A DNA stretch of 64,000 bases from Spirosoma aureum. Its GTDB lineage: Bacteria > Bacteroidota > Bacteroidia > Cytophagales > Spirosomataceae. The DNA is taken from NCBI RefSeq assembly GCF_011604685.1, contig NZ_CP050063.1:4920501-4984500 (forward strand), given 5' to 3'. The notes below the pieces were generated by a model. That model saw only the letters and a program-made list of their open reading frames with translations, was not told the origin of the DNA and did no database searches. Below, in pieces: positions 3,957-19,494 of the stretch (positions are counted from its first letter, which is position 1; every line of letters starts with the position of its first letter). A program made the translations under genes and the position numbers.

Positions 3957-4030
3957 AATGTTCTTATCAATTCCAACGATTTTATGGAATTTTGTATCGT
4001 TATTTTGACCAATGTTTATTTACAGACCCG

Positions 4031-4732: not shown

Positions 4733-4735
4733 CGT

Positions 4736-4761
4736 CCTGAAGTTGAGCTTTCAGGCTTTTT
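4736..4761 (+). terminator. Probable rho-independent terminator
   Basis: A 6-bp stem (cctgaa at 4736-4741, ttcagg at 4750-4755) with an 8-nt loop is followed by ctttttc, beginning 3 nt after the stop codon of the upstream gene. Confidence 0.55.
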
Positions 4762-4796
4762 CGCCGACATTTGCTAAACTACTAGTTGTCTGATCT

Positions 4797-5843
4797 GTGC
4801 GAAAACGTTATCTGGGGCTGATTTTCCTTTCCATCCTTTCTCGAATCACTGACGCTCAAACCCTCGGTGGACAACGCGTTTTTTCGTTTCTGGATCTGCC
4901 CACAAACGCACGTGTTGCGGCCCTTGGCGGGCAGGTCGCTTCTGCCACTAAACCAGACGGCTCGTATCACCTCAATAACCCGGCACTGGCCGATTCAAGT
5001 AGGGATAATCAACTGGCTATTAGCCTGATGCCTTATCTGGCTGCCGCGAAGCATTACACCTTACAGTACGGTCTACCCATCTCATCTGGATTGGCGGACC
5101 GGCATGCCCGGTGGGGCATTGGGTTACAATACCTTAGCTATGGTCAGTTTAATCTGACCGATCCGGCTGGCAACTCGCTCGGCACATTCACTGCCAATGA
5201 CTACGCGCTGAGTCTTACGCATGCCCGGACAGAAGGTAATTTTACGCTTGGTGCAACAATAAAAGCAGTCGGTTCAAGCATCGAGACCTATTCAGCATTT
5301 GGCATCCTGGCCGATCTGGGCGGTATCTGGCGGCATCCCGAACAGGACTTAACCTTCGGTCTGGTGGCTAAAAACGTCGGCTATCTCCTCAAAAATTACG
5401 GGCCTACCGGCGCTGATTTGCCTTTCGATTTACAGGCTGGGGTTACCGTAAAGCCCAAACACGCACCCATACGCCTGACCGTAACGGCTCACCATTTGCA
5501 ACGCTTCGACATCAGCTATAACGATCCCAATTTGAACGTTCGTTATGATCTGAATGGCAATCTGATTTCACAAACGACGAGCGTAACGGAAAAAATAGCG
5601 CGCCATTTGAGTGTTGGTGCCGAACTTCTGGTTAGCCGGAATGTGCATTTACTCCTGGGCTATAATCACCAAAAACGCCAGGAAGGTAAAGTAGCAACGG
5701 GTAGCGGTGGGGCCGGTATTTCGTTTGGCGCTTCCGTACAGGCTCGTGGTTTCCAGCTTACCTATGCCCGATTCTCCTCGGTTCCCACAGCCGGAACCAG
5801 CCAGCTTTCCATACGCATTGATCTGGACCGGTTGCTACATTAA
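4797..5843 (+). CDS. porQ: Type IX secretion system protein PorQ-like
   Basis: PorQ is an outer-membrane beta-barrel protein required with PorU, PorV and PorZ for type IX secretion and surface attachment in Bacteroidetes. The 348-residue product has a signal peptide ending Thr-Asp-Ala-Gln, then the family's opening Gly-Gly-Gln-Arg-Val-Phe-Ser-Phe-Leu-Asp-Leu-Pro and Ala-Arg-Val-Ala-Ala-Leu-Gly-Gly. A beta-rich body with Asn-Asn-Pro-Ala-Leu near residue 60 follows. Length and N-terminal signature fit the family. The start is a GTG directly before the signal peptide; no ATG fits. No other T9SS gene is in view, which is normal because por genes are scattered. Confidence 0.85.
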   Translation: MRKRYLGLIFLSILSRITDAQTLGGQRVFSFLDLPTNARVAALGGQVASATKPDGSYHLNNPALADSSRDNQLAISLMPYLAAAKHYTLQYGLPISSGLADRHARWGIGLQYLSYGQFNLTDPAGNSLGTFTANDYALSLTHARTEGNFTLGATIKAVGSSIETYSAFGILADLGGIWRHPEQDLTFGLVAKNVGYLLKNYGPTGADLPFDLQAGVTVKPKHAPIRLTVTAHHLQRFDISYNDPNLNVRYDLNGNLISQTTSVTEKIARHLSVGAELLVSRNVHLLLGYNHQKRQEGKVATGSGGAGISFGASVQARGFQLTYARFSSVPTAGTSQLSIRIDLDRLLH

Positions 5844-5924
5844 TGATCCTTGAAAAGGTTTTCCCTAATCGCTTCAAGCTCAAGCAGATCAGGACCCTGG
5901 AAAAAGACCCGAATTGGTGCAAAC

Positions 5925-6500
5925 TTAGGTTCGCAGCGATCCAACGTGCCGGTACTTATTGATGAGTACGCCCGTGGGCGTAACCTTCGTGCTGACCAAA
6001 GCCAGTTCGCACGGGTCCACACTGTCTGAAAAAAAACGTTTGCCCCGGCCCAGCAAAACCGGGTAGATCAGCAATACGACCTCGTCAACCAATCCCTGGT
6101 CGAGCAACACCGGCGTCAGTGTTGAACTTCCCCAGACAATCAGGTCATGGCCGTCTGTTGACTTGAGGCTACGAATACCCGCAATGATGTCCGTGCCTAA
6201 ATCCATAAACGGGGCCCATTCCAGGCTGTCCGGTCGGTGGGTGGCGACGTATTTGGTCGCAGCATTCAGACCGTTGGCTATCGGAAAATTCCCGGCTTTG
6301 GGCCAGTAGTCGGACCACAAATCGTAGGTGTGACGGCCAAGCAACAGATCGAAGGGACTGCCCTGTGCCTCTTCAACGGCCTCTAAGCCTGCCGGACTTC
6401 GAAAAGGCATCGTCCAATTGCCATGCGTAAAGTTTTCGTCGTTTTCGTGCTGAATCACGCCGTCCAGCGAGATATGTTCCAGGATTCGGATCTTTCTCAT
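5925..6500 (-). CDS. Dihydrofolate reductase family protein (RibD C-terminal-like reductase)
   Basis: A 191-residue cytoplasmic protein of the DHFR/RibD-C fold. The opening Arg-Lys-Ile-Arg-Ile-Leu-Glu-His-Ile-Ser-Leu-Asp-Gly-Val and the later Leu-Leu-Leu-Gly-Arg-His-Thr-Tyr-Asp motif are typical of the YwjB/YyaP group. The NADPH-site Val-Trp-Gly-Ser-Ser-Thr-Leu and Tyr-Pro-Val-Leu-Leu-Gly-Arg-Gly-Lys-Arg-Phe-Phe are also visible. These proteins are often annotated as dihydrofolate or pyrimidine reductases, but the real substrate is usually unknown. It is a single-gene unit with its own -7 box. Confidence 0.88.
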   Translation of the reverse strand: MRKIRILEHISLDGVIQHENDENFTHGNWTMPFRSPAGLEAVEEAQGSPFDLLLGRHTYDLWSDYWPKAGNFPIANGLNAATKYVATHRPDSLEWAPFMDLGTDIIAGIRSLKSTDGHDLIVWGSSTLTPVLLDQGLVDEVVLLIYPVLLGRGKRFFSDSVDPCELALVSTKVTPTGVLINKYRHVGSLRT

Positions 6501-6528
6501 GTTGTTTGCTATTCGTTTACTGTTTGCA

Positions 6529-6536
6529 CAAAGTTA
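6529..6536 (-). promoter_or_regulatory. Bacteroidetes-type -7 box for the DHFR-like gene
   Basis: TAACTTTG on the minus strand, about 28 nt upstream of the ATG. It is the same octamer, at a similar distance, as the box in front of the carboxylase gene. Confidence 0.55.
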
Positions 6537-6630
6537 AAACGAACGATGTACTTGCATGAGGGGCAATCGCGACAATATGAGGGTGTTTTGTTATTAGTTT
6601 CAACTGTCAATCAGGGTAGATAGATGCTTG

Positions 6631-6738
6631 TCACTGCCTCGTAAAAATCCAATAAACTGTAGATTTCCAGCCATTTGAATCGTACCGGTACGATTCTACC
6701 TTAAACGTCTTCGGTAACTCTTCTATTTCAGCCTTCAT
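6631..6738 (-). CDS. Possible small protein or gene remnant (35 aa)
   Basis: An ATG-initiated 35-codon frame encodes a charged, aromatic peptide (Met-Lys-Ala-Glu-Ile-Glu-Glu-Leu-Pro-Lys start, Gly-Trp-Lys-Ser-Thr-Val-Tyr-Trp-Ile near the end). The codons have the composition of real coding sequence here. A perfect 20-bp palindrome (6677-6696) falls inside it. I recognise no family. It could be a small gene, the remnant of a longer one, or chance. The rest of the 6501-6999 gap is AT-rich upstream DNA with no other feature. Confidence 0.3.
   Translation of the reverse strand: MKAEIEELPKTFKVESYRYDSNGWKSTVYWIFTRQ
6677..6696. repeat. Perfect 20-bp palindrome
   Basis: The sequence GAATCGTACCGGTACGATTC is its own reverse complement. 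It lies in the long gap before the DUF5686 gene and within a possible 35-aa frame. It could be an operator or a structural accident of the codons for Glu-Ser-Tyr-Arg-Tyr-Asp-Ser. Confidence 0.7.
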
Positions 6739-6999
6739 TTTGTTGTTTTATCATGGTTCAGATAGGGGTCTGCGCAGTTCCGATTGTCAGCTATGAAACG
6801 TATTCATTAGCCACAAAAGCTTACCCTTTTAATTATCCTTGACCAGTATTCTCTTGGACAAAATAAAGTAAACGTTTATTTTAAACAAGAATTTAAAATA
6901 AGTGAAAACTTTTTTTGGACTTACACTGTATGTGTGTAGTCAACCGAGTTTACTTCATAGAAATGGGGTTGGCACGCCATTCAACGATTCATCTTGCTT

Positions 7000-9639
7000 A
7001 TGGACGAAAACTATACGGGCTCGTCTGACCGGGATGCTTTTTATCCCTCTCTCACTCGTTCCAACCGATTCTGGCTGGCCTCCCTCCTTTTGTGTTTACT
7101 AACTGTCAGTCAACTGTTTGCACAAAAAACGATCATTCGGGGTAAAGTGATTAACGCACGTACCAATGCTGCGGTTGAGTTCTCAAACGTTCTGGTCGAA
7201 GGCTCAACAATGGGTACTCAATCCGACCTGAATGGGGCTTATGCACTGGAATTATCGCCAGGTACGATTACTCTCCGGGCCTCCTTTGTTGGCTATGCGC
7301 CGGAATCAAAAACTATCACCATCGATGGTTCGCAGAAAGTACTGGTGCTCAACTTCCGGTTGCAGCCGCAGCAAAAGAACCTGTCGGAGGTGACGGTTCG
7401 GGGGAAGCGCGAACGCTACCGGAATAAAGATAATCCGGCGGTTTTACTGATCGAAAAAGTGATCGCTCATAAGGGTCAGAACCGCAAGGAAGCACTTTCG
7501 TTTTACCAGTATAACAAATACGAAAAGATTGAATTCGACCTGAGTAATATCTCCGAAAAATTCCGCAATCGGCGATCGCTCAAGAAGTTCGATTTTGTCT
7601 TCAATTACCTCGACACCTCACAGGTAACGGGTAAGGTAAATCTCCCCATTTATCTGAAGGAATCCATTTCCAATGTGCTTTACAGCCGTAACCCCGAGCG
7701 AAGAAAAGAATTCGTAGAAGGCGAAAAAATGACCGGGCTGGGAAATTACGTGGACAATAATGGCATCAAGGTTTATCTGGAAACCCTCTATCAGGATGTC
7801 AATGTGTACGATAACAGCATCATGCTGCTATCGAATCAGTTCCTCGGCCCGACCTCGCCCCTGGCTCCGCAATTTTACAAATACGTCATCATTGATTCAA
7901 CGGAAATCAAAGGCGTTCGTTGCGTAAATCTTGGCTTTTCGCCCCGAAACAAAACTGATTTACTGTTTCAGGGAACAATGGCAATCGCGCTCGATTCAAG
8001 CTACGCGATTCGGAAAGTGGTCATGGGTTTTTCGAAAGACATTAACGTCAATTTCGTAACTGACATGCGGCTGGCCCAGGAATATGACTTTGTGCAGGAT
8101 CAGGGGCTGATGCTCACCAAAGATGAGCTGGCCATTGAGTTCAATCTCCTCAAAAAAGAGAACGGCATGGGTTTGTTTGGACAGCGTAGTGTTTCGTATC
8201 GGGATTACATTGTGAATCAGCCCATTGACTCCAAACGATTCAGCGGTTTATCGAGCGATGTCAGCAAAGATGCCCTGACACGATCAGAATCTTTCTGGGC
8301 GCAGGCTCGCCATCAACCCCTTTCCGATAAAGAACTGGGAATCTATGAAATGGTCGATAGCGTTCGAAAAGTCCCGGTGTTCCAGAAATTTATGAACACG
8401 GCGCTTTTTCTACTGGAAGGTTATAAACCGTTCGGTCCGTTTGAGCTTGGACCGGTCAATACATTCTATAGTTTCAATCCGGTCGAAGGGTTAAGGCTTC
8501 GCGTGGGTGGACGAACAACAACCACCTTTAGCGACCGAATGGCTTTCGAAACCTACGGAGCGTATGGCTTTCGCGACAAACGGGTCAAATATTTTGCCTC
8601 AGCCACCTTTTCACTGACGGACCATAACACCTATACCTACCCGATCAAGCATTTGCAGGTAAGTGTTCAGAACGATCTGAAAATTCCGGGGCAGGAACTT
8701 CAGTTTGTGCAGGAAGACAATTTTTTGCTCTCGTTCAAACGGGGCCCTAACAACCGCCGGACCTATAACCAGGTTTTCGCCATCGATTACCTTAACGAAT
8801 CGAAGAGCGGACTTGGCCTAAACCTCAATGTAAAACGCATTGAACAAACACCGGCGGGGGCACTTACGTTTGACCAGTATGTACCGGAAGGGGGAGTATT
8901 ACCCATATCGAACGTAACAAGTACTGAACTAACGGCAGGCCTACGGTATGCTCCGCACGAGCAGTTTTATCAGGGTAAAAATTATCGGGTTCCCATCGTA
9001 AACAAATATCCGATCATCCAAATCCGCTTTACGGCCGGGATTAAGGGATTACTTGATGGGCAATACAACTTTCAGCGTCTGATGGTTTATGCAAATAAAC
9101 GGTTTTATGTAGCCCCCATCGGCTATACAGACATTACGCTCGAAGGCGGGCAGACATTTGGTCGGCTACCCTTCCCGTTGCTAACCATTCATCGCGCCAA
9201 CCAGACTTACGCTTATCAACCGGAGTCGTATAACATGATGAATTTCCTGGAGTTTGTCAGTGATCATTACGGAGCTGTCTTTGCCGATCACTACTTCAAT
9301 GGGTTCATTTTCAATAAGATCCCTTTGTTAAAAAAACTCAAACTGCGTGAAGTAGTTACGTTCAAAGGTCTGTGGGGCGGGTTACGCCCTGAAAACCGAC
9401 CGGGCCCCGACAATGTAACGGCCGGACAGTCTGATGGGCTGCTCCGACTACCAACGGATGAAAATGGTAAGCCTGTTTCATTTGCACTGGATTCCCGGCC
9501 TTACATGGAGGCAAGCGTTGGTATAGCCAACATCTTCAAGATCCTCCGGGTCGACCTGATCAAACGACTGACTTATCTCGATAATCCGTTGGCCCCCCAG
9601 GGCTATGGTATCCGCTTTAGAATGAAGTTCGATTTTTAG
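7000..9639 (+). CDS. DUF5686 / carboxypeptidase-regulatory-like outer-membrane protein
   Basis: An 879-residue outer-membrane protein. A short charged N-tail is followed by a signal peptide (Phe-Trp-Leu-Ala-Ser-Leu-Leu to Leu-Phe-Ala-Gln). Next comes a carboxypeptidase-regulatory beta-sandwich (about residues 45-130, with Ile-Arg-Gly-Lys-Val-Ile-Asn and Gly-Thr-Gln-Ser-Asp-Leu-Asn-Gly-Ala-Tyr). The long C-terminal region matches the DUF5686 type and ends as a beta-barrel in Arg-Phe-Arg-Met-Lys-Phe-Asp-Phe. A TTG at 6994 is an alternative start; ATG at 7000 is preferred. Only 19 nt separate it from the glycosyltransferase gene, so it may lead that transcript. Its role is unknown; TonB-dependent transporters share the N-domain, but no TonB plug is seen. 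Confidence 0.87.
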   Translation: MDENYTGSSDRDAFYPSLTRSNRFWLASLLLCLLTVSQLFAQKTIIRGKVINARTNAAVEFSNVLVEGSTMGTQSDLNGAYALELSPGTITLRASFVGYAPESKTITIDGSQKVLVLNFRLQPQQKNLSEVTVRGKRERYRNKDNPAVLLIEKVIAHKGQNRKEALSFYQYNKYEKIEFDLSNISEKFRNRRSLKKFDFVFNYLDTSQVTGKVNLPIYLKESISNVLYSRNPERRKEFVEGEKMTGLGNYVDNNGIKVYLETLYQDVNVYDNSIMLLSNQFLGPTSPLAPQFYKYVIIDSTEIKGVRCVNLGFSPRNKTDLLFQGTMAIALDSSYAIRKVVMGFSKDINVNFVTDMRLAQEYDFVQDQGLMLTKDELAIEFNLLKKENGMGLFGQRSVSYRDYIVNQPIDSKRFSGLSSDVSKDALTRSESFWAQARHQPLSDKELGIYEMVDSVRKVPVFQKFMNTALFLLEGYKPFGPFELGPVNTFYSFNPVEGLRLRVGGRTTTTFSDRMAFETYGAYGFRDKRVKYFASATFSLTDHNTYTYPIKHLQVSVQNDLKIPGQELQFVQEDNFLLSFKRGPNNRRTYNQVFAIDYLNESKSGLGLNLNVKRIEQTPAGALTFDQYVPEGGVLPISNVTSTELTAGLRYAPHEQFYQGKNYRVPIVNKYPIIQIRFTAGIKGLLDGQYNFQRLMVYANKRFYVAPIGYTDITLEGGQTFGRLPFPLLTIHRANQTYAYQPESYNMMNFLEFVSDHYGAVFADHYFNGFIFNKIPLLKKLKLREVVTFKGLWGGLRPENRPGPDNVTAGQSDGLLRLPTDENGKPVSFALDSRPYMEASVGIANIFKILRVDLIKRLTYLDNPLAPQGYGIRFRMKFDF

Positions 9640-9658
9640 AAATTAGTAACTTGTTCCT

Positions 9659-10702
9659 GTGAAAAAGAAAATACTCTTCATAGTGGGTTCCGTTAATCAG
9701 ACCTCGCAGATGCACCAGATTTCGGCGCAGCTTGCCGATGAATATGACTGCTGGTTTAGTCAGTTCTATGCTGATGCTAAGTTAATTAACTGGGGAATCC
9801 GGCAGGGCTGGCTCGATCATACCATTCTGGCGGGCAAATTCCGGACGGATGCCGAAACGTACCTGCGCTCGTTTAATCTCAACATCGATTATCAGGCAAA
9901 ACAAAACCGCTATGACCTCATCGTGGTATGCTCTGACCTGGTTGTGCCGGGGGCGGTTAGGTCAACGAAAAGCATTTGGGTACAGGAAGGCATGGTCGAT
10001 GAAGTAACCTGGCTGACCAAAGCCGTGAAAGCCCTGGGTTTACCGCGCTATTTCAGCGTTGGCACTTCGCTGAACGGTGCGTCGAACCTCTGTAACATCT
10101 ATTGTGCAGCATCAGAAGGCTATAAATCCTTTTTTACGGGGATGGGCACGGAAGCCAGCAAAATTTTCGTGACGGGCATTCCCAACTTCGATAACGTTCG
10201 CCAGTATATGACGAATGATTTCCCGCATCACGATTACGTCATGGTGGCTACTTCAGATATCCGGGAAACTTTCCGAAGCGAAGATCGTCTGGGATTTATT
10301 CGGAAGGCAGTTTCAATGGCTAATGGACGCCAGTTATTGTTCAAACTCCATCCGAATGAAGTCTGGGAGCGGGCCGAAGCCGAAATCCGGCAGATTGCCC
10401 CACCCGATGCTTTGATTTTTCAGCAAGGCAATACGAACGAAATGATTGCCAATTGCGCGGAACTCATCACACAGTATTCAACAGTAGTGTATGTAGGAAT
10501 GGCCTTAAAAAAGCCGGTTTCATCTTACTTCGATGTCGATGAACTCCGTCGATTAACACCCATTCAGAACGGCGGCACATCGGCTCAGAACATCGCCCGC
10601 ATCTGCCGTGACTTCCTACGTGATATGGGCCCAGATGAACATTTTGTTAAATCGTATCAATACGAAGCCGTGGCTTATGACCGGCAACGACTTTCGCTGT
10701 AA
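9659..10702 (+). CDS. GT-B type glycosyltransferase, probable sugar-acid transferase of the cluster
   Basis: A 347-residue soluble protein starting at GTG with Met-Lys-Lys-Lys-Ile-Leu-Phe-Ile-Val-Gly-Ser. It shows a two-domain Rossmann layout, and its C-terminal half carries Leu-Phe-Lys-Leu-His-Pro-Asn-Glu, a motif shared by CDP-glycerol glycerophosphotransferases, UDP-GlcNAc 2-epimerase-like proteins and some sialyl/Kdo-type transferases. A Thr-Gln-Tyr-Ser-Thr-Val-Val-Tyr-Val-Gly segment follows where such enzymes bind the nucleotide sugar. It begins the run of genes ending in the NeuB-type synthase, so I infer that it transfers the CMP-activated acid made by that pathway. It could instead be an epimerase-like enzyme acting earlier. 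Confidence 0.7.
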   Translation: MKKKILFIVGSVNQTSQMHQISAQLADEYDCWFSQFYADAKLINWGIRQGWLDHTILAGKFRTDAETYLRSFNLNIDYQAKQNRYDLIVVCSDLVVPGAVRSTKSIWVQEGMVDEVTWLTKAVKALGLPRYFSVGTSLNGASNLCNIYCAASEGYKSFFTGMGTEASKIFVTGIPNFDNVRQYMTNDFPHHDYVMVATSDIRETFRSEDRLGFIRKAVSMANGRQLLFKLHPNEVWERAEAEIRQIAPPDALIFQQGNTNEMIANCAELITQYSTVVYVGMALKKPVSSYFDVDELRRLTPIQNGGTSAQNIARICRDFLRDMGPDEHFVKSYQYEAVAYDRQRLSL

Positions 10703-10753
10703 CTAGCGCAATTAATTTGAATCAGGTGTTTACGTGCCGTTTGTTTTGAGTAT

Positions 10754-11569
10754 ATGAACCGCTCAGCCCTTGTTGTCATCGTTCAGGCCCGGATGTCATC
10801 GAGCCGCCTGCCAGGCAAAGTCCTGATGCCTATTCTGGGCAGACCATTACTGGCCCGAATGCTTGAGCGATTGAACCAGTGCCAGACACCGTTCACGACA
10901 GTCGTTGCAACGTCAACAGACCCGTCCGACGATCAGATTGAGCAATTTTGCCGGGATGAGCATGTGGCTTTTTTTCGGGGAAGCCTGGATGACTGTCTGG
11001 ATCGGCATTACCAGATTGCTGAACGCTGGAAGGCAGACATCGCGGTTAAAATTCCCTCCGACTGCCCATTGATCGACCCGCGTGTTGTCGATCAGACGTT
11101 ACAGTTTTTCCTGGATCATCCTGGAGAGTATGACTTCGTCAGTAACCTTCACCCGGCTACCTGGCCCGATGGCAACGATGTCGAAATTATGACCCGAGCC
11201 TGTCTCCAACGAACACAACTCGAAGCAACGAAGCCCCTCGAACGCGAACACACGACGCCCTATATCTGGGATACTGCACCCGAATCATTCCGCAGGGGTA
11301 ATTTGAGCTGGCAAACGGGCCTGGATTACTCCATGAGCCACCGCTTCACAATTGACTACCAAGAAGATTATGCGTTCATCCGTACTGTATACGAGGAATT
11401 ATATCCTGAAAATCCATCCTTTTCCTGCGAAGACATTCTGGCTCTACTTGAGCGTAAACCCGAAATCTATGCCATCAATGCCGATTTAGCGGGTGTAAAC
11501 TGGTACCGCAATCATTTAAACGAACTCCACACCGTTTCACCCAATCAAACGAGAGTACTCAGTAATTAG
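10754..11569 (+). CDS. SpsF-type cytidylyltransferase (CMP-sugar acid synthetase)
   Basis: A nucleotidyltransferase of the SpsF/acylneuraminate cytidylyltransferase group that would activate a 2-keto-3-deoxy sugar acid with CTP. The nucleotide-binding N-terminus Val-Gln-Ala-Arg-Met-Ser-Ser-Ser-Arg-Leu-Pro-Gly-Lys-Val is diagnostic. Lys-Ile-Pro-Ser-Asp-Cys-Pro-Leu-Ile-Asp-Pro near residue 100 holds the metal-binding acidic residues. At 271 residues it is slightly longer than SpsF. It sits between the presumed transferase and the transketolase halves. In Bacillus, SpsF works beside SpsE, a NeuB homologue, and the NeuB-type gene of this cluster is the matching partner. The exact sugar is not determinable. 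Confidence 0.88.
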   Translation: MNRSALVVIVQARMSSSRLPGKVLMPILGRPLLARMLERLNQCQTPFTTVVATSTDPSDDQIEQFCRDEHVAFFRGSLDDCLDRHYQIAERWKADIAVKIPSDCPLIDPRVVDQTLQFFLDHPGEYDFVSNLHPATWPDGNDVEIMTRACLQRTQLEATKPLEREHTTPYIWDTAPESFRRGNLSWQTGLDYSMSHRFTIDYQEDYAFIRTVYEELYPENPSFSCEDILALLERKPEIYAINADLAGVNWYRNHLNELHTVSPNQTRVLSN

Positions 11570-11651
11570 TTAATGGGTTTGCCGTAGTCATTTTGCGGTT
11601 TTTTTTAGGAACCAAAAACAGAACGCCGTAAACCATAAACCCAAGTAATAC

Positions 11652-12509
11652 ATGAATAATGAACAGTTAACTGATCTACAAAAAATAGCCCTGAATGTTC
11701 GGGAACACATCATTCGAATGTCTACGGATGGAGGGTGCTTTACCGGCGCGTCACTCTCGGCGACGGATCTGGTCGTTTACCTCTACAAGCAGTTTCTGAA
11801 CATAACGAAAGAAACACTGAATGATCCAGGTCGCGATTACCTGTTTTTGTCGAAAGGCCATGATGTACCCGCCCTTTACGGCACCTTCGTCGAACTGGGA
11901 TGGCTCCCCGTCGAACGGCTCAACAATCATTTATCGACGCGGGATTCCATTTACTGGCACCCAAATGTGAAAGTCCCCGGTATTGAATTTCATTCCGGAT
12001 CATTGGGTCATTTGCCATCAGTAGCCTTGGGCGTCGCCCTGGATTGCAAAATAACCGGATCACCCAATAAGGTCGTCTGTATTCTGGGCGACGGCGAATT
12101 AAACGAAGGCTCCGTCTGGGAAGCCGTTCTGGTAGCCAATGCCTATAAGCTTGATAATCTGCTCTTTGTAGTCGATCGAAACTTCTTTCAGGCCAATATG
12201 CCTACGGAAGAACTCATTCCGCTGGAACCGCTGGTCGATAAATTTTCGGCCTTTGGGGCTGCGGTCAAACGGATAGATGGGCACGACTTTACAGCGTTAG
12301 ATGATGCGCTATCCATATTTCCATTCCAGTCCGGGAAGCTCAATGTGCTCATTGCCGATACGCGCAGGGGCAAAGGCTTGCCGAGTATTGAGGCCCGTGC
12401 CGATCGCTGGTTCTGCAATTTTACCCACGATGAGGTAGGCGCTCTGCTCGCTGAACTCCACGGCGAACATACGGCTACACTGGAATCTGAAACGCTTGTT
12501 GTGCGCTAA
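11652..12509 (+). CDS. Transketolase, N-terminal half (thiamine diphosphate-binding subunit)
   Basis: This corresponds to the pyrophosphate-binding domain of transketolase: 285 residues against about 660 for the fused enzyme. The ThDP motif opens with Gly-Asp-Gly-Glu-Leu-Asn-Glu-Gly at residues 146-153 and closes with Val-Val-Asp-Arg-Asn about 30 residues later. Ser-Lys-Gly-His-Asp near residue 73 and His-Ser-Gly-Ser-Leu-Gly-His near 115 are conserved active-site stretches. The other half is the next gene, so the two must form one enzyme. Split transketolases are known in archaea and in sugar-biosynthesis clusters. Its position between a CMP-sugar synthetase and an aminotransferase suggests building an unusual sugar rather than the pentose phosphate pathway. 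Confidence 0.9.
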   Translation: MNNEQLTDLQKIALNVREHIIRMSTDGGCFTGASLSATDLVVYLYKQFLNITKETLNDPGRDYLFLSKGHDVPALYGTFVELGWLPVERLNNHLSTRDSIYWHPNVKVPGIEFHSGSLGHLPSVALGVALDCKITGSPNKVVCILGDGELNEGSVWEAVLVANAYKLDNLLFVVDRNFFQANMPTEELIPLEPLVDKFSAFGAAVKRIDGHDFTALDDALSIFPFQSGKLNVLIADTRRGKGLPSIEARADRWFCNFTHDEVGALLAELHGEHTATLESETLVVR

Positions 12510-12614
12510 AAGAAAGGAATATTGGCGGTATGAGCTGGCGATAGAATCAGGGGACCGAGCCCTTCGATCAAGCCGTTTACAGCCTATCGTATACACCTTA
12601 GAGCAACTAAAAAA

Positions 12615-13529
12615 ATGACTTACGAGGAATTACTTACCCAAACTGCTCTTGCCGATGAACGGGTTGTCGTTATGACCGCTGAAAACCGGGCACTGGTGCG
12701 GAATATGCCCCAAAATCTTGGCAATCGCTTTGTCGACACCGGCATTACGGAACAGACCATGATTGGTGCAGCTGCGGGACTGGCGCTACGGGGCCGAACT
12801 CCCGTTGTTCATGCCCTGGCGGCTTTCCTGTCGATGCGGGCTTATGAATTTATCCGTACGGACGTCGGAATAGGCAATCTACCCGTCAAACTGAGCAGCT
12901 TTATTCCGGGGTTTTTGTCGGACGGTAATGGACCTACGCACCAGGCGGTTGAAGATATTGCTCTGATGCGGGGTATTCCGAACATGCAGGTCTTTTGCCC
13001 GGCTGACGAACAGGATCTACTCCAGATGCTACCCTCGATCTGGGCGTCGAAATCGCCTTCCTACGTGCGGATCTCAACCCGACCAGCCACCTATCAACAC
13101 AAACAACCTTTCGAAATTGGGTGCGCCGAAGTGGTGTCGAGGGGTTCTGATGTAACGATTCTCGTTTACGGTATGCTCTTCGAACAGGCATTGATTGCCG
13201 CCAATTTTCTACGTCATGATGGGTACTCGGTTGGTCTGGTGAATATGCGCAGTCTGAAACCGGTTGACGAAGCGGTCATTCTGGAGATTTGTGCCAGTTC
13301 GGATCTGGTCGTGACCGTTGAGGATCATTTTCTTACCGGCGGGCTGTACAGTATCGTGGCAGAAACACTTCTTAAATACCGCAAAACGGCCCATGTTCAC
13401 CCCTTTGCCCTCAAAGGAAAATGGTATAAACCGGGCCGCCTGAATGAAGTTCTGGAGCATGAAGGATTTACCGGGGCGCAACTAGCCCGGGCTATTATCG
13501 AGCATCTGGTAGAAAATCTAGCCGACTGA
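12615..13529 (+). CDS. Transketolase, C-terminal half (pyrimidine-binding subunit)
   Basis: The 304-residue partner of the upstream half. The catalytic Glu that activates thiamine diphosphate lies in Asp-Thr-Gly-Ile-Thr-Glu-Gln (Glu46). Phe-Leu-Ser-Asp-Gly-Asn-Gly-Pro-Thr-His-Gln near residue 105 matches the donor-site loop. The end is the transketolase C domain, with Val-Thr-Val-Glu-Asp-His-Phe and Thr-Gly-Gly-Leu. A 105-nt gap separates it from the N-half. The gap contains no gene and its purpose is unclear; it could hold a separate translation signal. Together the halves would move a two-carbon ketol unit between sugars. Confidence 0.9.
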   Translation: MTYEELLTQTALADERVVVMTAENRALVRNMPQNLGNRFVDTGITEQTMIGAAAGLALRGRTPVVHALAAFLSMRAYEFIRTDVGIGNLPVKLSSFIPGFLSDGNGPTHQAVEDIALMRGIPNMQVFCPADEQDLLQMLPSIWASKSPSYVRISTRPATYQHKQPFEIGCAEVVSRGSDVTILVYGMLFEQALIAANFLRHDGYSVGLVNMRSLKPVDEAVILEICASSDLVVTVEDHFLTGGLYSIVAETLLKYRKTAHVHPFALKGKWYKPGRLNEVLEHEGFTGAQLARAIIEHLVENLAD

Positions 13530-13597
13530 CTGAGAATGTTGCCAGGCGATCCAGGATTCGTTCGCTTAGCCATTCATTCTGTATAACTCATCATCTC

Positions 13598-14935
13598 ATG
13601 AATAGTATCCGATTTAACGAAACCTTTCCTGACATTACGGTGTCGGATCAGTATTACGAACGGGCATTGGCCGTTCAGAAGCCCATCACCCAGACGCTTG
13701 CCAAAGGACCAGGGCAGTTTACGAAAGGGATTGCCCCGAAATACCTTGATCGTGGCAAAGGCGCACACGTTTGGGATGTCGATGGCAACGAATACCTTGA
13801 TTTCAACGCAGCAATTGGGCCGGTTTCGCTGGGTTATTGCTATCCGGTTGTCGATGAGGCTATTCGACAGCAGCTCAGCAAAGGAATCACTTTCTCGCTG
13901 ATGCATCCGCTCGAAGTTGAACTCTCGGAGCTGATTCAGGAAGTTATACCGAATGCTGAAGCGGTAAAAATCAGTAAGACCGGTGCCGATGTCTGCTCGG
14001 CCGCTATTCGTGTGGCCCGGGCGTTTACGGGTCGCGAAAAAGTCTTCTGCTGTGGCTATCATGGCTGGCACGACTGGTACATCGCCGTTACGAGCCGGAA
14101 TGCGGGCATTCCGGATGCGATTCAGGATATGACCTATACGTTTGAATACAACGACATCGACAGCATCAAAGCTGCGCTTGACGAAACCGTTGCTGCGCTG
14201 ATTCTGGAACCGTTCATCTTCGAAGCGCCTAAACCCGGATTTCTGGAAGAACTGGCTGAGGTATGCCGCCAAAACGGAACTCTGTTGATCTTCGACGAAA
14301 TGTGGACTGGTTTTCGGATTGCGATCGGTGGTGCACAGGAGTATTTCAATGTCAAACCCGACCTGGCGGTTTATTCCAAAGCCTGCGCGAATGGCATGCC
14401 TATCGCCCTCCTGACCGGCCGCGCTGATGTGATGGAACTCTTTAACAGCGAGGTATTTAGCTACACAACCTTCGGCGGAGAAGCACTCTCCCTCGCAGCC
14501 TGCATCGCTACAATCAACGAACTGCGCGATAAACAGGTACCGGCTTATCTCGACGAAAAAGGCGGCTTACTGAAAGATGGCTATAACCAGCTGGCTGCTG
14601 AACTAGGCCTGTCGCACATCACCAGGTGCATTGGCTATAACTGCCGATCGATGGTTACGTTCGAGCCAGCTGCAGGCAATGGACTGGAACTCAAAACCCT
14701 GATGCAGCAGGAAATGATCAAGCGGGGCATCTTGTGGGCGGGTTTTCACAATATGTGTTTCAGTCACTCCGATGAGGATATTGCCTATACGCTTTCGGCC
14801 TACAGGGATGTGCTGCCGATTATGAAGGAAGCGATCGAAAGTGGTAACGTTAAATCGTATCTGCACGGTGAAGTGCTCGAAGCAGTATTCCGCAAAACGA
14901 GTAATTACAACATCAAACCGAAAATAACAGCCTGA
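13598..14935 (+). CDS. Class III aminotransferase, glutamate-1-semialdehyde aminomutase-like
   Basis: A 445-residue PLP enzyme. Features are Gly-Pro-Val-Ser-Leu-Gly-Tyr near residue 73, Ser-Lys-Thr-Gly-Ala-Asp-Val near 127, Tyr-His-Gly-Trp-His-Asp-Trp near 153, Phe-Asp-Glu-Met-Trp-Thr-Gly-Phe-Arg with the cofactor Asp, and the Schiff-base Lys261 in Tyr-Ser-Lys-Ala-Cys-Ala-Asn-Gly. This is the GSA-aminomutase-like branch found in antibiotic and sugar pathways. Because genes for sugar-acid synthesis surround it, I infer that it puts an amino group on a keto or aldehyde sugar, probably after oxidation by the neighbouring SDR. True HemL is unlikely given the context and the Trp in the Asp motif. 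Confidence 0.87.
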   Translation: MNSIRFNETFPDITVSDQYYERALAVQKPITQTLAKGPGQFTKGIAPKYLDRGKGAHVWDVDGNEYLDFNAAIGPVSLGYCYPVVDEAIRQQLSKGITFSLMHPLEVELSELIQEVIPNAEAVKISKTGADVCSAAIRVARAFTGREKVFCCGYHGWHDWYIAVTSRNAGIPDAIQDMTYTFEYNDIDSIKAALDETVAALILEPFIFEAPKPGFLEELAEVCRQNGTLLIFDEMWTGFRIAIGGAQEYFNVKPDLAVYSKACANGMPIALLTGRADVMELFNSEVFSYTTFGGEALSLAACIATINELRDKQVPAYLDEKGGLLKDGYNQLAAELGLSHITRCIGYNCRSMVTFEPAAGNGLELKTLMQQEMIKRGILWAGFHNMCFSHSDEDIAYTLSAYRDVLPIMKEAIESGNVKSYLHGEVLEAVFRKTSNYNIKPKITA

Positions 14936-15010
14936 AAATAATCACAGTACCTTGTACAACAAGACATTAGCACTGAAGCCTGTAAGCAAAAAATCGAAAA
15001 CTTTTTTACT

Positions 15011-15817
15011 GTGGTTGAAAAATATTCACTTACCGATCGGGTGGCGATTGTGACCGGGGCACTTGGGCTGATCGGACGCAACCACTGCCAGGCGCTGGCG
15101 GAAGCTGGAGCCAAGGTCGTTGTGGCCGACCTGAACGAAGAAGCGGCTAAGTCATTCGCTTCTGATTTGGGCGATACTCATTTTGGCATCGGACTCGATG
15201 TAACCGATGAAGCGACAGTCAAACAAGTCCGCGACCGGATTCTGGAACGTTATGGCCGAATTGATGTACTGGTCAACAATGCAGCCTTAAACGAAGCTGT
15301 CGAAAATCCGGCCATGGCACTGGAATTAACGGCATTCGAAAACTTTCCGGTGGCCCAGTTTCGGGCATCGCTGGAAGTAAATGTAACGGGCGTTTTCCTC
15401 TGCGCCCAGGTATTCGGGAGTGTGATGGCCCAACAAGGTAAAGGCAGTATTATCAACGTAGCCTCTACCTATGGGCTTGTGGGTCCCGACCAGCGCATTT
15501 ACCGCAACGAAGCAGGCGAACAGACTTTTTATAAAACAGCGGCTTACCCGGCCACCAAGGGTGCCGTAGTCAATTTTACCCGGTTTCTGGCTGCCTACTG
15601 GGGGCAGAAAGGCGTTCGGGTCAATACGCTCTCGCCGGGCGGTGTAGAAAACGGCCAGAGCGAGTATTTCATATCGAATTACTCCGCTAAAACTGTACTG
15701 GGTCGAATGGCCCAACCCGATGAGTATCAGGGGGCTGTTGTTTTTCTGGCCAGCGATGCGTCGGCTTACATGTCGGGGGCCAATCTGGTAGTCGATGGTG
15801 GCTGGACGGCTATTTAA
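15011..15817 (+). CDS. SDR-family oxidoreductase
   Basis: A classical short-chain dehydrogenase/reductase of 268 residues. The dinucleotide motif is Thr-Gly-Ala-Leu-Gly-Leu-Ile-Gly near residue 18, followed by Asn-Asn-Ala near 94, the catalytic Ser in Asn-Val-Ala-Ser-Thr near 155, and Tyr179-x3-Lys183. An Asp follows the second strand (Val-Ala-Asp-Leu-Asn), which favours NAD(H). The start is a GTG. It probably oxidises a hydroxyl or reduces a keto group on the sugar intermediate, before or after transamination; the order is not visible. Confidence 0.88.
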   Translation: MVEKYSLTDRVAIVTGALGLIGRNHCQALAEAGAKVVVADLNEEAAKSFASDLGDTHFGIGLDVTDEATVKQVRDRILERYGRIDVLVNNAALNEAVENPAMALELTAFENFPVAQFRASLEVNVTGVFLCAQVFGSVMAQQGKGSIINVASTYGLVGPDQRIYRNEAGEQTFYKTAAYPATKGAVVNFTRFLAAYWGQKGVRVNTLSPGGVENGQSEYFISNYSAKTVLGRMAQPDEYQGAVVFLASDASAYMSGANLVVDGGWTAI

Positions 15818-15890
15818 TGAACTGGTTTATGGAAGTCGGTTGATAATACGTCTGCTCCCGATAACTATAAACCATAAACCGTAAAACAAT

Positions 15891-16442
15891 TTGAATCAGG
15901 AATTAATCGAAAAAGCAGCTCGCATAAAACTCCTGTTGACGGACTGCGATGGCGTTCTGACCGATGCAGGCGTTTATTACGGCGAAAACGGCGAAATGTT
16001 GAAGAAATTTAACATGCGGGATGGTATGGCCGTTGAGCGACTACGGAAACTGGTGGGTGTTGAGACGGGAATTATAACCGGCGAATCATCGCCATCAGTT
16101 GTGTCACGGGCGGCCAAATTAAAGATTACAGAGTTGCACCTTGGCAGTAAGGATAAGCTGTCTTTACTGGCCGAGATCCTGGAACGCAAGGGTTTAGATG
16201 CGTCGGAGATAGCGTTCATCGGCGACGACGTCAACGATCTGGAGATCCAGAAAGCCGTAGGATTTTCGGCTTGCCCCGCCGACGCGACCCGATATAACAA
16301 ATCCATTTCAGATTACTGCTGCGATGCGAAAGGTGGCGAAGGCTGCTTCCGCGAACTGGCTGAGCTGATTATTGACGCCAAACATATTGTATCCGTTCAA
16401 CTTGCATCAACCATACAACCCAATGAGAACCATTACACTTAA
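15891..16442 (+). CDS. KdsC-type HAD phosphatase
   Basis: A 183-residue HAD phosphatase of the 3-deoxy-manno-octulosonate 8-phosphate phosphatase group, which has no cap and forms a tetramer. Asp18 and Asp20 in Thr-Asp-Cys-Asp-Gly-Val-Leu-Thr-Asp are the nucleophile and acid/base. Thr-Gly-Glu-Ser-Ser, a conserved Lys, and Gly-Asp-Asp-Val-Asn-Asp complete motifs II-IV. It starts at TTG, and its last 20 nt overlap the synthase gene. In NeuB-type pathways this enzyme removes the phosphate left after condensation with phosphoenolpyruvate, so the cluster probably makes a phosphorylated ulosonic acid. It could also be a true KdsC, but the coupling to a NeuB homologue argues for the pathway role. 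Confidence 0.88.
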   Translation: MNQELIEKAARIKLLLTDCDGVLTDAGVYYGENGEMLKKFNMRDGMAVERLRKLVGVETGIITGESSPSVVSRAAKLKITELHLGSKDKLSLLAEILERKGLDASEIAFIGDDVNDLEIQKAVGFSACPADATRYNKSISDYCCDAKGGEGCFRELAELIIDAKHIVSVQLASTIQPNENHYT

Positions 16443-17328
16443 CACTGGCCGAAAAATTGGCCAGGGACAACCCAGTTATGTTATTGCCGAAATTGGCATT
16501 AACCACAACGGCTCACTCGAACTGGCAAAAAAATTGATCGATGAAGCCGTCGCTGCCAAAGCCGATGCGGTGAAGTTCCAGAAACGGACGCCCGAAGTAT
16601 GCGTTCCCCGCGATCAGTGGAACGTCATGCGCGACACGCCCTGGGGTCGAATGACCTACATCGACTACAAGCGCAAAACTGAATTTGGCAAGCTGGAATA
16701 TACGGCCATCGATCAGTACTGTCACGAACAGGGCATTGACTGGTTTGCTTCGGCCTGGGATGTAGAGTCCGTCGATTTTCTGGAAGCCTTCGATCCCTGT
16801 CTGTACAAATTGGCCTCTGCCTCCCTGACCGATCTGGCGCTAATCGAAAAAATTCTGCATACGGGTCGCCCACTCATGCTCTCGACGGGCATGTCGACCA
16901 TGGCTGAAATCGAAGAAGCGATTTCACTCGTTGAAGAATACGATACCGACTACCCGCTTCTGGTTGCTCATTCGACCTCGGCTTACCCCTGCAAACCCGA
17001 AGAATTAAATCTACGGATGGTCCCAACCCTCCAGGCTGCATACCCAACTATTCCGATTGGTTATTCGGGACATGAAACAGGCCTTTCGACAACGGTTGCC
17101 GCGGTTACGCTGGGAGCAACCTTCGTGGAGCGCCATTTCACCCTCGACCGGGCTATGTGGGGTTCTGACCATGCCGCTTCGGTTGAACCACAGGGATTAC
17201 AGCGGCTGGTCCGCGACATTCGCGATGTCGAAACCGCCCTCGGCGATGGAGTAAAAAAAGTATATGAAACTGAACTAGGGCCGATGAAGCGGCTACGGTT
17301 AAATATTAATTCCGCTTTTTCGGTTTAA
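16423..17328 (+). CDS. NeuB-type nonulosonic acid synthase, lacking the SAF domain
   Basis: This enzyme family condenses phosphoenolpyruvate with an aldose (ManNAc-like in sialic acid synthesis) to form a 3-deoxy-2-ulosonic acid. Hallmarks are Glu-Ile-Gly-Ile-Asn-His-Asn-Gly near residue 23, Ala-Val-Lys-Phe-Gln-Lys-Arg near 50, Ser-Thr-Gly-Met-Ser-Thr near 155, His-Ser-Thr-Ser-Ala-Tyr-Pro near 188 and Gly-Tyr-Ser-Gly-His-Glu near 217. The ATG at 16423 is chosen; a longer TTG frame would add 17 residues without family similarity. The protein is 301 residues and stops just after the TIM barrel. Typical NeuB has a further antifreeze-like (SAF) domain of about 60 residues, which is absent. A 74-nt palindromic element begins 10 nt after the stop. 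Confidence 0.9.
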   Translation: MRTITLNTGRKIGQGQPSYVIAEIGINHNGSLELAKKLIDEAVAAKADAVKFQKRTPEVCVPRDQWNVMRDTPWGRMTYIDYKRKTEFGKLEYTAIDQYCHEQGIDWFASAWDVESVDFLEAFDPCLYKLASASLTDLALIEKILHTGRPLMLSTGMSTMAEIEEAISLVEEYDTDYPLLVAHSTSAYPCKPEELNLRMVPTLQAAYPTIPIGYSGHETGLSTTVAAVTLGATFVERHFTLDRAMWGSDHAASVEPQGLQRLVRDIRDVETALGDGVKKVYETELGPMKRLRLNINSAFSV

Positions 17329-17337
17329 TTGCCCTAG

Positions 17338-17411
17338 GACTTTTGCTTCGAGCCGTGTCACGGTAACTAATCGTGTATCTAGTAACCGTGACACGGCTCG
17401 AAGCAAAAGTC
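17338..17411. repeat. Long inverted repeat, 32-bp arms (palindromic element A)
   Basis: Arms at 17338-17369 and 17380-17411 are reverse complements apart from one mismatch, with a 10-nt loop. Each arm contains an 11-nt palindrome of its own, CCGTG-T-CACGG. The element at 47963-48039 shares the core AGCCGTGyCACGGT, suggesting a dispersed family. No T-tract follows. It starts 10 nt after the NeuB-type gene and ends about 110 nt before the next start. Confidence 0.9.
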
Positions 17412-17524
17412 TTATGCCGGTGGAACATTATTTTAGAACGATACGGTTTGTATGATACAATTGATGAATCATACACTTTGGCGACACCAGCTACCGTATC
17501 ACCCTCAAACACTTGTTAAACATT

Positions 17525-18436
<912 letters not shown>

Positions 18437-18438
18437 TT

Positions 18439-18813
18439 GTGCAAGCCTGGTTGTTTCTGTTCATCGCAGCTTCCTTTGAAACTGCCTGGACCTATTCCGT
18501 TAAATATATGACGTTCGATCTGTTGAAAACGCTCCGCTGGAATACGTTTTACACCCCGAATGTCGGTTTGCCAATTCTGCTTCCGTTTGTTGGCTATGTT
18601 GTATTTGGGATAGCCAATATCTATTTTTTCTCACAGGCCATTAAACAGATTCCAACACCAACCGCCTTTGCGGTCTGGACTGCTATGGCCCTGGCATTGA
18701 TCAAAGCCGTCGATGTGTTTATTTTCAAAACCAACTGGTCCCTGACCGAACTGTTTTTTCTGACACTTATTGGCGTTGGCATTATCGGTTTACGGGTTTA
18801 CTCGGCGGGATGA
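18439..18813 (+). CDS. Small multidrug resistance (SMR) family transporter
   Basis: A four-helix membrane protein of 124 residues starting at GTG. The N-terminal helix contains Glu in Ala-Ala-Ser-Phe-Glu-Thr-Ala-Trp, the position of the coupling glutamate of EmrE/SugE proteins. Ile-Pro-Thr-Pro-Thr-Ala-Phe-Ala-Val-Trp-Thr matches the conserved third-helix stretch of the family. It is a little longer than E. coli SugE (105 residues), with a longer first loop. SMR proteins work as dual-topology dimers and export cations such as guanidinium or quaternary ammonium compounds. The 2-nt spacing to the upstream gene implies co-translation. Confidence 0.8.
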   Translation: MQAWLFLFIAASFETAWTYSVKYMTFDLLKTLRWNTFYTPNVGLPILLPFVGYVVFGIANIYFFSQAIKQIPTPTAFAVWTAMALALIKAVDVFIFKTNWSLTELFFLTLIGVGIIGLRVYSAG

Positions 18814-18849: not shown

Positions 18850-19494
18850 TTGAATATCTATTTCATTAGTGGGCTGGGCGCTGACAAGCGTATTTTTCAA
18901 AAATTAGTACTACCTGACTATTACCAATTCATTTATTTGGACTGGCTACCTGTTATGCCCAGTGATACTTTGGAAAGTTATGCTTTTCGAATGGCACAAC
19001 TGATTGATACATCAGTACCGTTTTATGTAATTGGTGTCTCATTTGGTGGTATGATTGCGACTGAAATAGCAAAAAAACTGAAGCCACTGAAAACAATTAT
19101 CATTTCAAGTATAGGTCTTTCTGCAGGCTTGCCCTGGTATTGGCGCTTTTTTGGCAAGCTCTCACTCGATCGATTTATTCCTGTGACCATTTTTGCCTTA
19201 CCTATAGCACCTACTTACTGGCTTTTTGGAGCAAAAGACGCTGCGACGAAGCTTCTTTTAAAGCAAATACTTCTTGATACCGATAAAGTCTTCATGAAAT
19301 GGGCAATTCGAGCAATTTTAACCTGGGATAATCAACGCATACCTACTTCTGTCATCCATATTCATGGTACACATGACAAAATCCTACCAATTCGGTTCAC
19401 AACGCCTGACCTCATTGTTATGCAAGGTGGTCATTTGATGGTTTATAGCCACAGTAATGAGGTATCGCATTTAGTAGGTTTATTGCTAATTTGA
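18850..19494 (+). CDS. Alpha/beta hydrolase family protein
   Basis: A 214-residue cytoplasmic protein. It opens with a strand and Gly-Leu-Gly-Ala-Asp where these hydrolases have the oxyanion loop. The nucleophile elbow is Gly-Val-Ser-Phe-Gly-Gly (Ser near residue 64), the acid is in His-Gly-Thr-His-Asp, and the His in Gly-Gly-His. It starts at a TTG; the nearby ATG is out of frame. The gene is clearly more AT-rich than its neighbours, which may indicate acquisition. Substrate unknown. Confidence 0.8.
   Translation: MNIYFISGLGADKRIFQKLVLPDYYQFIYLDWLPVMPSDTLESYAFRMAQLIDTSVPFYVIGVSFGGMIATEIAKKLKPLKTIIISSIGLSAGLPWYWRFFGKLSLDRFIPVTIFALPIAPTYWLFGAKDAATKLLLKQILLDTDKVFMKWAIRAILTWDNQRIPTSVIHIHGTHDKILPIRFTTPDLIVMQGGHLMVYSHSNEVSHLVGLLLI

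Follow-up and report, generated by a model that had tools for sequence, protein, structure and literature searches.

In Shewanella, KdnA and KdnB, the aminotransferase and dehydrogenase involved in making 8-amino-Kdo, act on the finished ulosonate before it is activated with CTP. Other ulosonic acid pathways resemble different portions of the locus reported here. The Kdn pathway of B. thetaiotaomicron and Prymnesium runs from Man-6-P through Kdn-9-P and Kdn to CMP-Kdn by means of a NeuB-type synthase, a HAD phosphatase, and a CTP transferase, whereas no aminotransferase, SDR, or transketolase step is named in the available portion of the source (PMC6200933). The legionaminic acid pathway of the B. 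subtilis sps genes likewise uses NeuB-type and CTP-transferase-type enzymes, but its precursors are UDP-linked and come from SpsM, and the accessible part of that report leaves transketolase unmentioned (PMC7439481). In another published case, EpaA (CTP_transf_3 plus aldo-keto reductase) and EpaB (an SDR) turn finished Pse into 8-epi-Pse (PMC12053666). Finally, accounts of the Streptomyces region SCO4873-4882 list SCO4880 as a sialic acid synthase and describe the teichulosonic acid polymer of this region as containing Kdn.

The window analyzed here (a stretch of 64,000 nucleotides from Spirosoma aureum) carries eight co-oriented open reading frames, A to H, at positions 9659-17328 of the + strand. 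Their profile matches agree with the families that a sequence-only reading of the same DNA had assigned to them, and the GT-B assignment of A comes from a structure model. Genes I and J, which were absent from that eight-gene description, belong to the same set; I begins 184 bases past H, and J begins 2 bases past I. For H, the ATG at 16423 is a more likely start than the listed TTG at 16372, and when read from this ATG the gene overlaps the 3' end of G. Gene K (18850-19494) was rejected as a cassette member, as it is present in 0 of the 58 core loci defined below.

Table 1. Genes of the cassette, with positions in the window
Gene	Assignment	Position	Strand	Profile match
A	GT-B fold protein, proposed CMP-ulosonate transferase	9659..10702	+	no Pfam or NCBIfam match
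B	SpsF-type CTP transferase	10754..11569	+	PF02348 (CTP_transf_3), 98.6 bits
C	transketolase N-terminal half, accessory	11652..12509	+	PF00456 (Transketolase_N)
D	transketolase central and C-terminal half, accessory	12615..13529	+	PF02779 (Transket_pyr) and PF02780 (Transketolase_C)
E	class III aminotransferase, proposed aminator of oxidized ulosonate	13598..14935	+	PF00202 (Aminotran_3)
F	SDR, proposed ulosonate dehydrogenase	15011..15817	+	PF13561
G	KdsC-type HAD phosphatase	15891..16442	+	TIGR01670, above cut-off
H	NeuB-type synthase	16423..17328	+	PF03102; no SAF domain match
I	membrane hydroxylase	17513..18436	+	PF04116
J	SMR-type small transporter	18439..18813	+	PF00893

The analysis supports the earlier proposal of a pathway for a CMP-activated amino-ulosonic acid, encoded by a coherent gene set. 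We assign a probability of about 0.5 to the reading that the cassette makes and uses such a compound, with amination following the formation of a Kdn-type backbone and with transfer taking place at the inner membrane. This reading draws on gene families, gene order, conservation, gene fusions, and the modelled fold of A, and we infer every substrate, the exact sugar, the carbon that is aminated, the acceptor, and the role of transketolase. In the proposed pathway, H would condense PEP and a hexose phosphate, for which mannose 6-phosphate is the likeliest candidate, into a Kdn-type 9-phosphate from which G would strip the phosphate. F would then oxidize one of the hydroxyls toward the non-reducing end, with C8 as the favored site, and E would place an amino group at the oxidized carbon. 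Once B had activated the amino-ulosonate with CTP, A would transfer it to an inner-membrane acceptor, and hydroxylation and movement of the product or its lipid would fall to I and J.

Several features distinguish this gene set from the described systems. Relative to the Kdn pathway, the cassette adds genes for redox and amination steps, and E-family and F-family genes are present in 49 and 51, respectively, of the 60 loci found by H. The Aminotran_3 and SDR proteins of the window differ from the DegT aminotransferase and Fe-ADH of the KdnA/KdnB system. EpaA and EpaB share with the cassette a PF13561 SDR (the family of both EpaB and F) and a CTP_transf_3 protein. However, EpaA bears an aldo-keto reductase, whereas B has only CTP_transf_3 and NTP_transf_3 matches and no aldo-keto reductase domain, and the product of the Epa enzymes is an epimer of pseudaminic acid, not an amine.

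To assess conservation, loci were gathered by similarity to H, to A, or to E, and a core was defined as a locus carrying A, B, E, F, and H. Loci related through H came from the best 80 of 580 confirmed relatives; further sampling took the best 80 of 416 relatives, and another search scored the 8000 best candidates, of which 120 were listed. After removal of two duplicates (L063 and L320), 58 distinct cores remained, in which gene presence reflects tblastn score rather than intactness and some loci stop at contig ends. The gene order of the window, ABCDEFGHIJ, is found in 29 of these 58 cores and the order ABEFGHI in 8, and therefore the arrangement is not a product of chance. The gene order is thus co-conserved in distant lineages, which the sequence-only reading had proposed as a check. 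Hydroxylase I occurs in 52 cores (missing in 6) and transporter J in 35 (missing in 23). The cassette is conserved yet patchily distributed across several bacterial phyla, and its hosts include Bacteroidota, Chloroflexota, and Ignavibacteria MAGs, plus a Methylomagnum plasmid. We know of no sugar described from these hosts. A GNAT-type gene lies 3' of H in three Chloroflexota loci.

The split transketolase (C and D) is present in 50 of the 58 cores and is accessory, because the other 8 lack it. Three genomes without C/D carry only full-length transketolase-like proteins (26-35% identity). Where present, C/D might edit the chain of an 8-keto intermediate or feed sugar phosphates to the pathway. 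An 8-keto intermediate with a hydroxyl at C9 would be a ketose, and therefore chemically fit to serve as a transketolase donor.

The link to Kdn comes from H and G. In a tree of synthases, cassette H is sister to the H of Streptomyces, which comes from a Kdn (teichulosonic acid)-type region. This tree omits translations bearing stops or X and matches shorter than 230 residues, represents the phage, Streptomyces-type, and Pse-type rows by random subsets (25, 14, and 10 rows, respectively), and has supports that were read after rerooting. H is 65-67% identical to all 26 actinomycete rows among the best 80 of 580 relatives, and only 12 positions are conserved in both cassette H and Streptomyces H yet differ between them. 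The single Streptomyces locus that was read (L109) has POLYST, DUF6716, and CTP_transf_3 genes, as expected for the SCO4873-4882 region, but its POLYST and DUF6716 genes stand in place of A. Moreover, all 28 Streptomyces-type loci carry, from A to H, only H and a weak match to G. The best NCBIfam model for G is the KDN-9-phosphatase NF058599, at 153.8 bits, below the cut-off of 180.

Neither a UDP-sugar dehydratase nor a 2-epimerase was found among A to J by profile matches, and A lacks epimerase signatures, so the earlier statement that the cluster has no usual UDP-sugar start holds. A pseudaminic-type route does lie elsewhere in the genome, one of two findings that the sequence-only reading had counted against itself, but it has its own synthase; the other, a lack of co-conservation, was not seen. 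This second NeuB (G000:C1:7279101), outside the cassette, has neighbors that by eye resemble PseH and PseG, with a CTP transferase nearby at 7281735. Three PF02350 genes are also located elsewhere in the genome.

We propose that A is a GT-B transferase for CMP-ulosonates on the basis of its predicted fold (mean pLDDT of 90.8) and its gene neighbors. A adjoins CTP transferases in two unrelated pathways, that of the cassette and that of Chlorobiaceae, where all five regions read have the order PF03706 - A - CTP_transf_3 - Fe-ADH - DegT aminotransferase. The top PDB match of the DegT aminotransferase at one such locus (L301) is KdnA, with 277 bits versus 161 for the next, whereas for the Chlorobium Fe-ADH the match to KdnB ranks 29th of 34. 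A KdnA-like gene near A was seen in Chlorobiaceae loci only. A was found in 110 of 296 genomes, including that of the window, from which 20 regions were taken for reading, and in 7 of 151 genomes of the phylum represented by L088, from which six regions besides L088's own were taken; in one of these six (G092), the match to A is split by a stop. Cassette genes are absent near A in all of a further six Chloroflexota-type regions (L265-L270) and in L314. For A, both Foldseek and VIA-align place 2-epimerases ahead of transferases, Epimerase_2 weakly matches 23 of 26 A members (best 2e-6), and some sources name the Chlorobium protein a 2-epimerase. These observations would fit an A that resembles UDP-GlcNAc 2-epimerase and makes ManNAc for a variant N-acylneuraminate pathway. 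Nevertheless, the HRREN and SGGIQEE stretches, which we take to be UDP-GlcNAc 2-epimerase motifs and which the genome's own epimerase (L146) possesses, are replaced in A, where D200, R202, and E203 are conserved instead. Given also that H has no SAF domain match, we consider the epimerase reading most improbable. The glycerophosphotransferase family, by comparison with the weak Epimerase_2 matches, matches 20 of the 26 A members (best 2.6e-7).

Oxidation and amination probably come after the NeuB step, as judged from three lines of evidence: fusions of E to a CTP transferase, the EpaA/EpaB case, and the KdnA-like partner of A in Chlorobiaceae. The fusions, with CTP_transf_3, occur in two viral contigs (L232 and L239), the only two of the five E loci read that have them. 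Because PseB/PseC-like genes occur together with several of the viral E genes, the fusions leave the substrate of E unfixed. Homologues of E with less than 46% identity on haloarchaeal plasmids lie in unrelated gene contexts, and the Sinorhizobium record carries no annotation at the corresponding place. The sequence-only reading had placed these steps earlier, with C/D, F, and E building an amino-aldose or its phosphate that H extends with PEP before G dephosphorylates, B activates, and A transfers the product. Such a scheme would resemble the aminoshikimate route, in which the PEP-condensing enzyme receives its amino-aldose phosphate from transketolase; it gives transketolase a clear job and suits the position of the C-D-E-F block ahead of G-H in most cores. 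All three lines of evidence speak against it, however, with E being fused to the CTP transferase and not to H, as do the eight cores without C/D and the closeness of H to a Streptomyces H that has no adjoining E or F. We therefore regard the earlier order of steps as unlikely. A division of labor is highly doubtful in which plain Kdn would be the product made and transferred by H, G, B, and A, and the acceptor would owe a distinct amino-alcohol or sphingoid-like portion to C to F and I, through two-carbon transfer to an aldehyde and then amination. I and J do point to a lipid, and a transketolase product could yield a 2-amino-1,3-diol upon transamination, but the B-E fusions and the 8 of 58 cores lacking C/D argue otherwise, and fatty aldehydes would be an improbable substrate for a housekeeping transketolase.

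We found no title or abstract start describing the gene set of the cassette in a search whose scope did not extend to Chlorobium lipids or aminoglycosphingolipid genes. No paper was found that joins transketolase with nonulosonic, cytidylyltransferase, and aminotransferase terms, or with NeuB and SpsF. The enzyme names do not occur in PMC13317340, and PMC12342839, searched for them as well, has nothing on the topic. If the preferred reading of amination after backbone synthesis is correct, a new amino-ulosonic acid would be the product of a widespread cassette, with parts that currently go under the names of glutamate-1-semialdehyde aminomutase, spore coat protein SpsF, and transketolase, and this would add one more example of ulosonic acids edited after rather than before their synthesis. 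A, a transferase family without a Pfam model, would join two unrelated donor routes, one in Bacteroidota, Chloroflexota, and others and one in green sulfur bacteria. Amino-sugar lipids in the phyla that bear the cassette could then also be tested directly from gene to product.

The families of I (PF04116) and J (SMR), the lplT gene on the Methylomagnum plasmid, and the PF03706 gene beside A in Chlorobiaceae are pointers to the membrane, and they suggest that the product may be attached to something there, possibly a lipid. A more specific version, which we consider quite unlikely, makes the cassette the NeuB-based twin of a green sulfur bacterial membrane glycosylation system with a KdnA-like aminotransferase, its product representing a new amino-ulosonic glycolipid class. 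F would give 8-keto-Kdn, the dedicated transketolase would remove C8-C9, and E would aminate the aldehyde to 7-amino-3,7-dideoxyheptulosonic acid, which would be activated with CTP and transferred by A to a hydroxylated lipid. To our knowledge, this chain-shortened sugar is without precedent; the related product in green sulfur bacteria would presumably be the Chlorobium aminoglycosphingolipid. A Kdn lipid of Flectobacillus was considered and set aside, as the literature consulted only mentioned or cited Batrakov 2000 without stating that such a lipid exists. We also make no claim of an ornithine-lipid link, because the nearest named model for I, OlsE, scores 104 bits against a cut-off of 475 and the Spirosoma aureum genome yielded no PF13444 gene. 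On the Methylomagnum plasmid, lplT overlaps G, and PF13444 and acyltransferase genes, which may be independent, follow about 300 bases behind lplT.

All eight open reading frames (genes A to H) proposed in the sequence-only reading are present in the window, in the same orientation and with the families named: a GT-B fold protein (A), CTP_transf_3 (B), a split transketolase (C and D, each with its own transketolase family domains), Aminotran_3 (E), an SDR (F), a KdsC-type HAD protein (G), and NeuB (H). For H, which contains the NeuB domain alone and whose match to the N-acetylneuraminate synthase model stops at position 273 of 329, a start at 16423 is preferred, and therefore G and H overlap. 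Beyond the range originally considered, genes I and J follow H. The palindrome between H and I has arms of at least 27 bases. Its arm has 17 matches in the genome (at most three mismatches, both window arms counted), several as facing pairs, and it is a dispersed REP-like element that is not cassette-specific.

Coordinates of features in the window and in related loci
Location	Position	Feature
Window	9659-17328 (+)	Genes A-H
Window	17338-17411	Perfect palindrome
Window	17513-18436	I, PF04116 membrane hydroxylase
Window	18439-18813	J, SMR transporter
Host contig (C1)	7279101	Second NeuB
Host contig (C1)	7281735	CTP transferase
L086, Chloroflexota	10952-12070	~372-aa protein after H
L088, Chloroflexota	10872-11987	~372-aa protein after H
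L094, Chloroflexota	10085-11215	~372-aa protein after H
L124, Kyanoviridae marine virus	9358-12816	SDR, SpsF-like, DegT-like aminotransferase, NeuB in a row
L232, viral contig	507-2543	CTP_transf_3 + Aminotran_3 in one ORF
L239, viral contig	9278-11275	CTP_transf_3 + Aminotran_3 in one ORF
L252, behind Methylomagnum cassette	13695-16757	lplT, then PF13444 and PF01553 acyltransferase genes
L301, family f35	3980-9046	PF03706 - A - CTP_transf_3 - Fe-ADH - KdnA-like (families assigned in this locus)

The cassette is real and conserved across many lineages. On the basis of tblastn of the window genes, the same order recurs in Spirosoma, Mucilaginibacter, Hymenobacter, Taibaiella, and others, and also in Chloroflexota and Ignavibacteria MAGs, and a search of plasmid records recovered the order A-B-C-D-E-F-H-G from a Methylomagnum plasmid. 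Among 58 distinct loci holding A, B, E, F, and H (60 minus two duplicates), C and D are found in 50, G in 50, I in 52, J in 35, and the next window gene, K, in none. Conservation of gene order, the check proposed for the sequence-only reading, extends to distant lineages. ABCDEFGHIJ occurs in 29 of these cores; the others are ABEFGHI (8), ABCDEFGHI (6), ABCDEFGH (4), and further arrangements (11). The ~372-aa protein of three Chloroflexota cassettes has a GNAT match in L086.

The host genome is a single contig of 8.9 Mb. Its second NeuB has neighbors that resemble PseH and PseG (judged by eye) and a CTP transferase nearby, which points to a pseudaminic-type route separate from the cassette. 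Relatives of H with at least 68% identity were found in 8 of 58 other genomes searched (same genus, 4 of 35), and the best match to E among the matches listed is a Spirosoma protein (93% identity). The patchy distribution of the cassette fits horizontal movement. One of the eight genomes with an H relative, Spirosoma telluris (G015; L038 / L063), has a split H match that contains a stop.

In a FastTree phylogeny of 137 H proteins, cassette H forms one clade (support 0.937), which takes in four short-contig or partial loci earlier labeled other; Streptomyces H is its sister (0.978), and phage H falls outside. Twelve positions are conserved within 58 cassette-type and within 26 Streptomyces-type H sequences yet differ between the groups. 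Each of the 28 Streptomyces-type loci carries, of A to H, just H and a weak G match, one of them with a weak F match as well; 26 are from actinomycetes, and one each from Methanoculleus and a deltaproteobacterium. One of them, L109, has POLYST, DUF6716, and CTP_transf_3 genes beside H and may be orthologous to SCO4873-4882, described as teichulosonic acid genes (PMC13011467); SCO4880 is listed with sialic acid synthase (PMC8269224), and the polymer is described as containing Kdn (PMC11481543). Known Kdn routes are described as using Man-6-P and a phosphatase (PMC6200933), and the best model for G is KDN-9-phosphatase, with a score under the model cut-off. On this basis, our best guess is that H and G would yield a Kdn-type product. 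Among viral loci (L152-L231, the best 80 of 416 confirmed relatives), 69 of 80 carry an H-type NeuB without other cassette genes.

The sequence-only reading had transketolase, SDR, and aminotransferase build an amino-aldose before NeuB acts, giving a CMP-activated amino-ulosonic acid. That product class remains plausible as predicted chemistry, but the step order is probably wrong: three lines of evidence place oxidation and amination after H. The first is the viral fusion of B-type and E-type domains, present in 2 of the 5 E-bearing viral loci read. In the set of 20 E-containing viral loci, a B-like gene is also present in 11 and an H-like gene in 13; some of these loci adjoin PseB/PseC-like genes and so concern other ulosonates. 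Another line is EpaA (CTP_transf_3 plus aldo-keto reductase) and EpaB (an SDR that shares its Pfam family with F), described as converting pseudaminic acid to its 8-epimer (PMC12053666). A bifunctional SpsF-like/aldo-keto reductase gene also appears in a Vibrionaceae/Moritella study (PMC7371886). In L124, the SDR is ~41% identical to F, and the aminotransferase was assigned by eye.

The remaining line is gene A. Of 296 genomes in the phylum, 110 carry it. In family f35, 5 of 5 regions have PF03706, A, CTP_transf_3, Fe-ADH, and a DegT aminotransferase in that order. The L301 aminotransferase has KdnA (5k8b) as its top PDB match (277 bits; next, 161), and the Fe-ADH matches KdnB weakly (2.8e-15, 29th of 34). 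We take f35 to be Chlorobiaceae because the FMO protein family occurs in 10 of 10 genomes tested and the A protein of L302 has an identical counterpart in Chlorobaculum parvum. Six regions from the phylum of L088 (L265-L270) carry A without cassette genes.

8-Keto-Kdn would be a ketose and hence a suitable transketolase donor. C and D are absent from 8 of 58 cores; in three such genomes (G059-G061), the transketolase-like proteins are all full-length, with 26-35% identity. Either a housekeeping enzyme can stand in or C and D alter the product.

The cassette's partners vary with lineage but are of membrane or lipid type: I and J accompany most of the 58 cores, an LplT gene overlaps G in Methylomagnum, and a PF03706 flippase-like protein sits alongside A in Chlorobiaceae. 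These partners suggest a glycolipid as the predicted cassette product, at about even odds. Chlorobium has an aminoglycosphingolipid. Sphingolipid synthesis by Chlorobium is noted in a review (PMC10626005). Behind the Methylomagnum cassette, lplT is followed by two acyltransferase genes.
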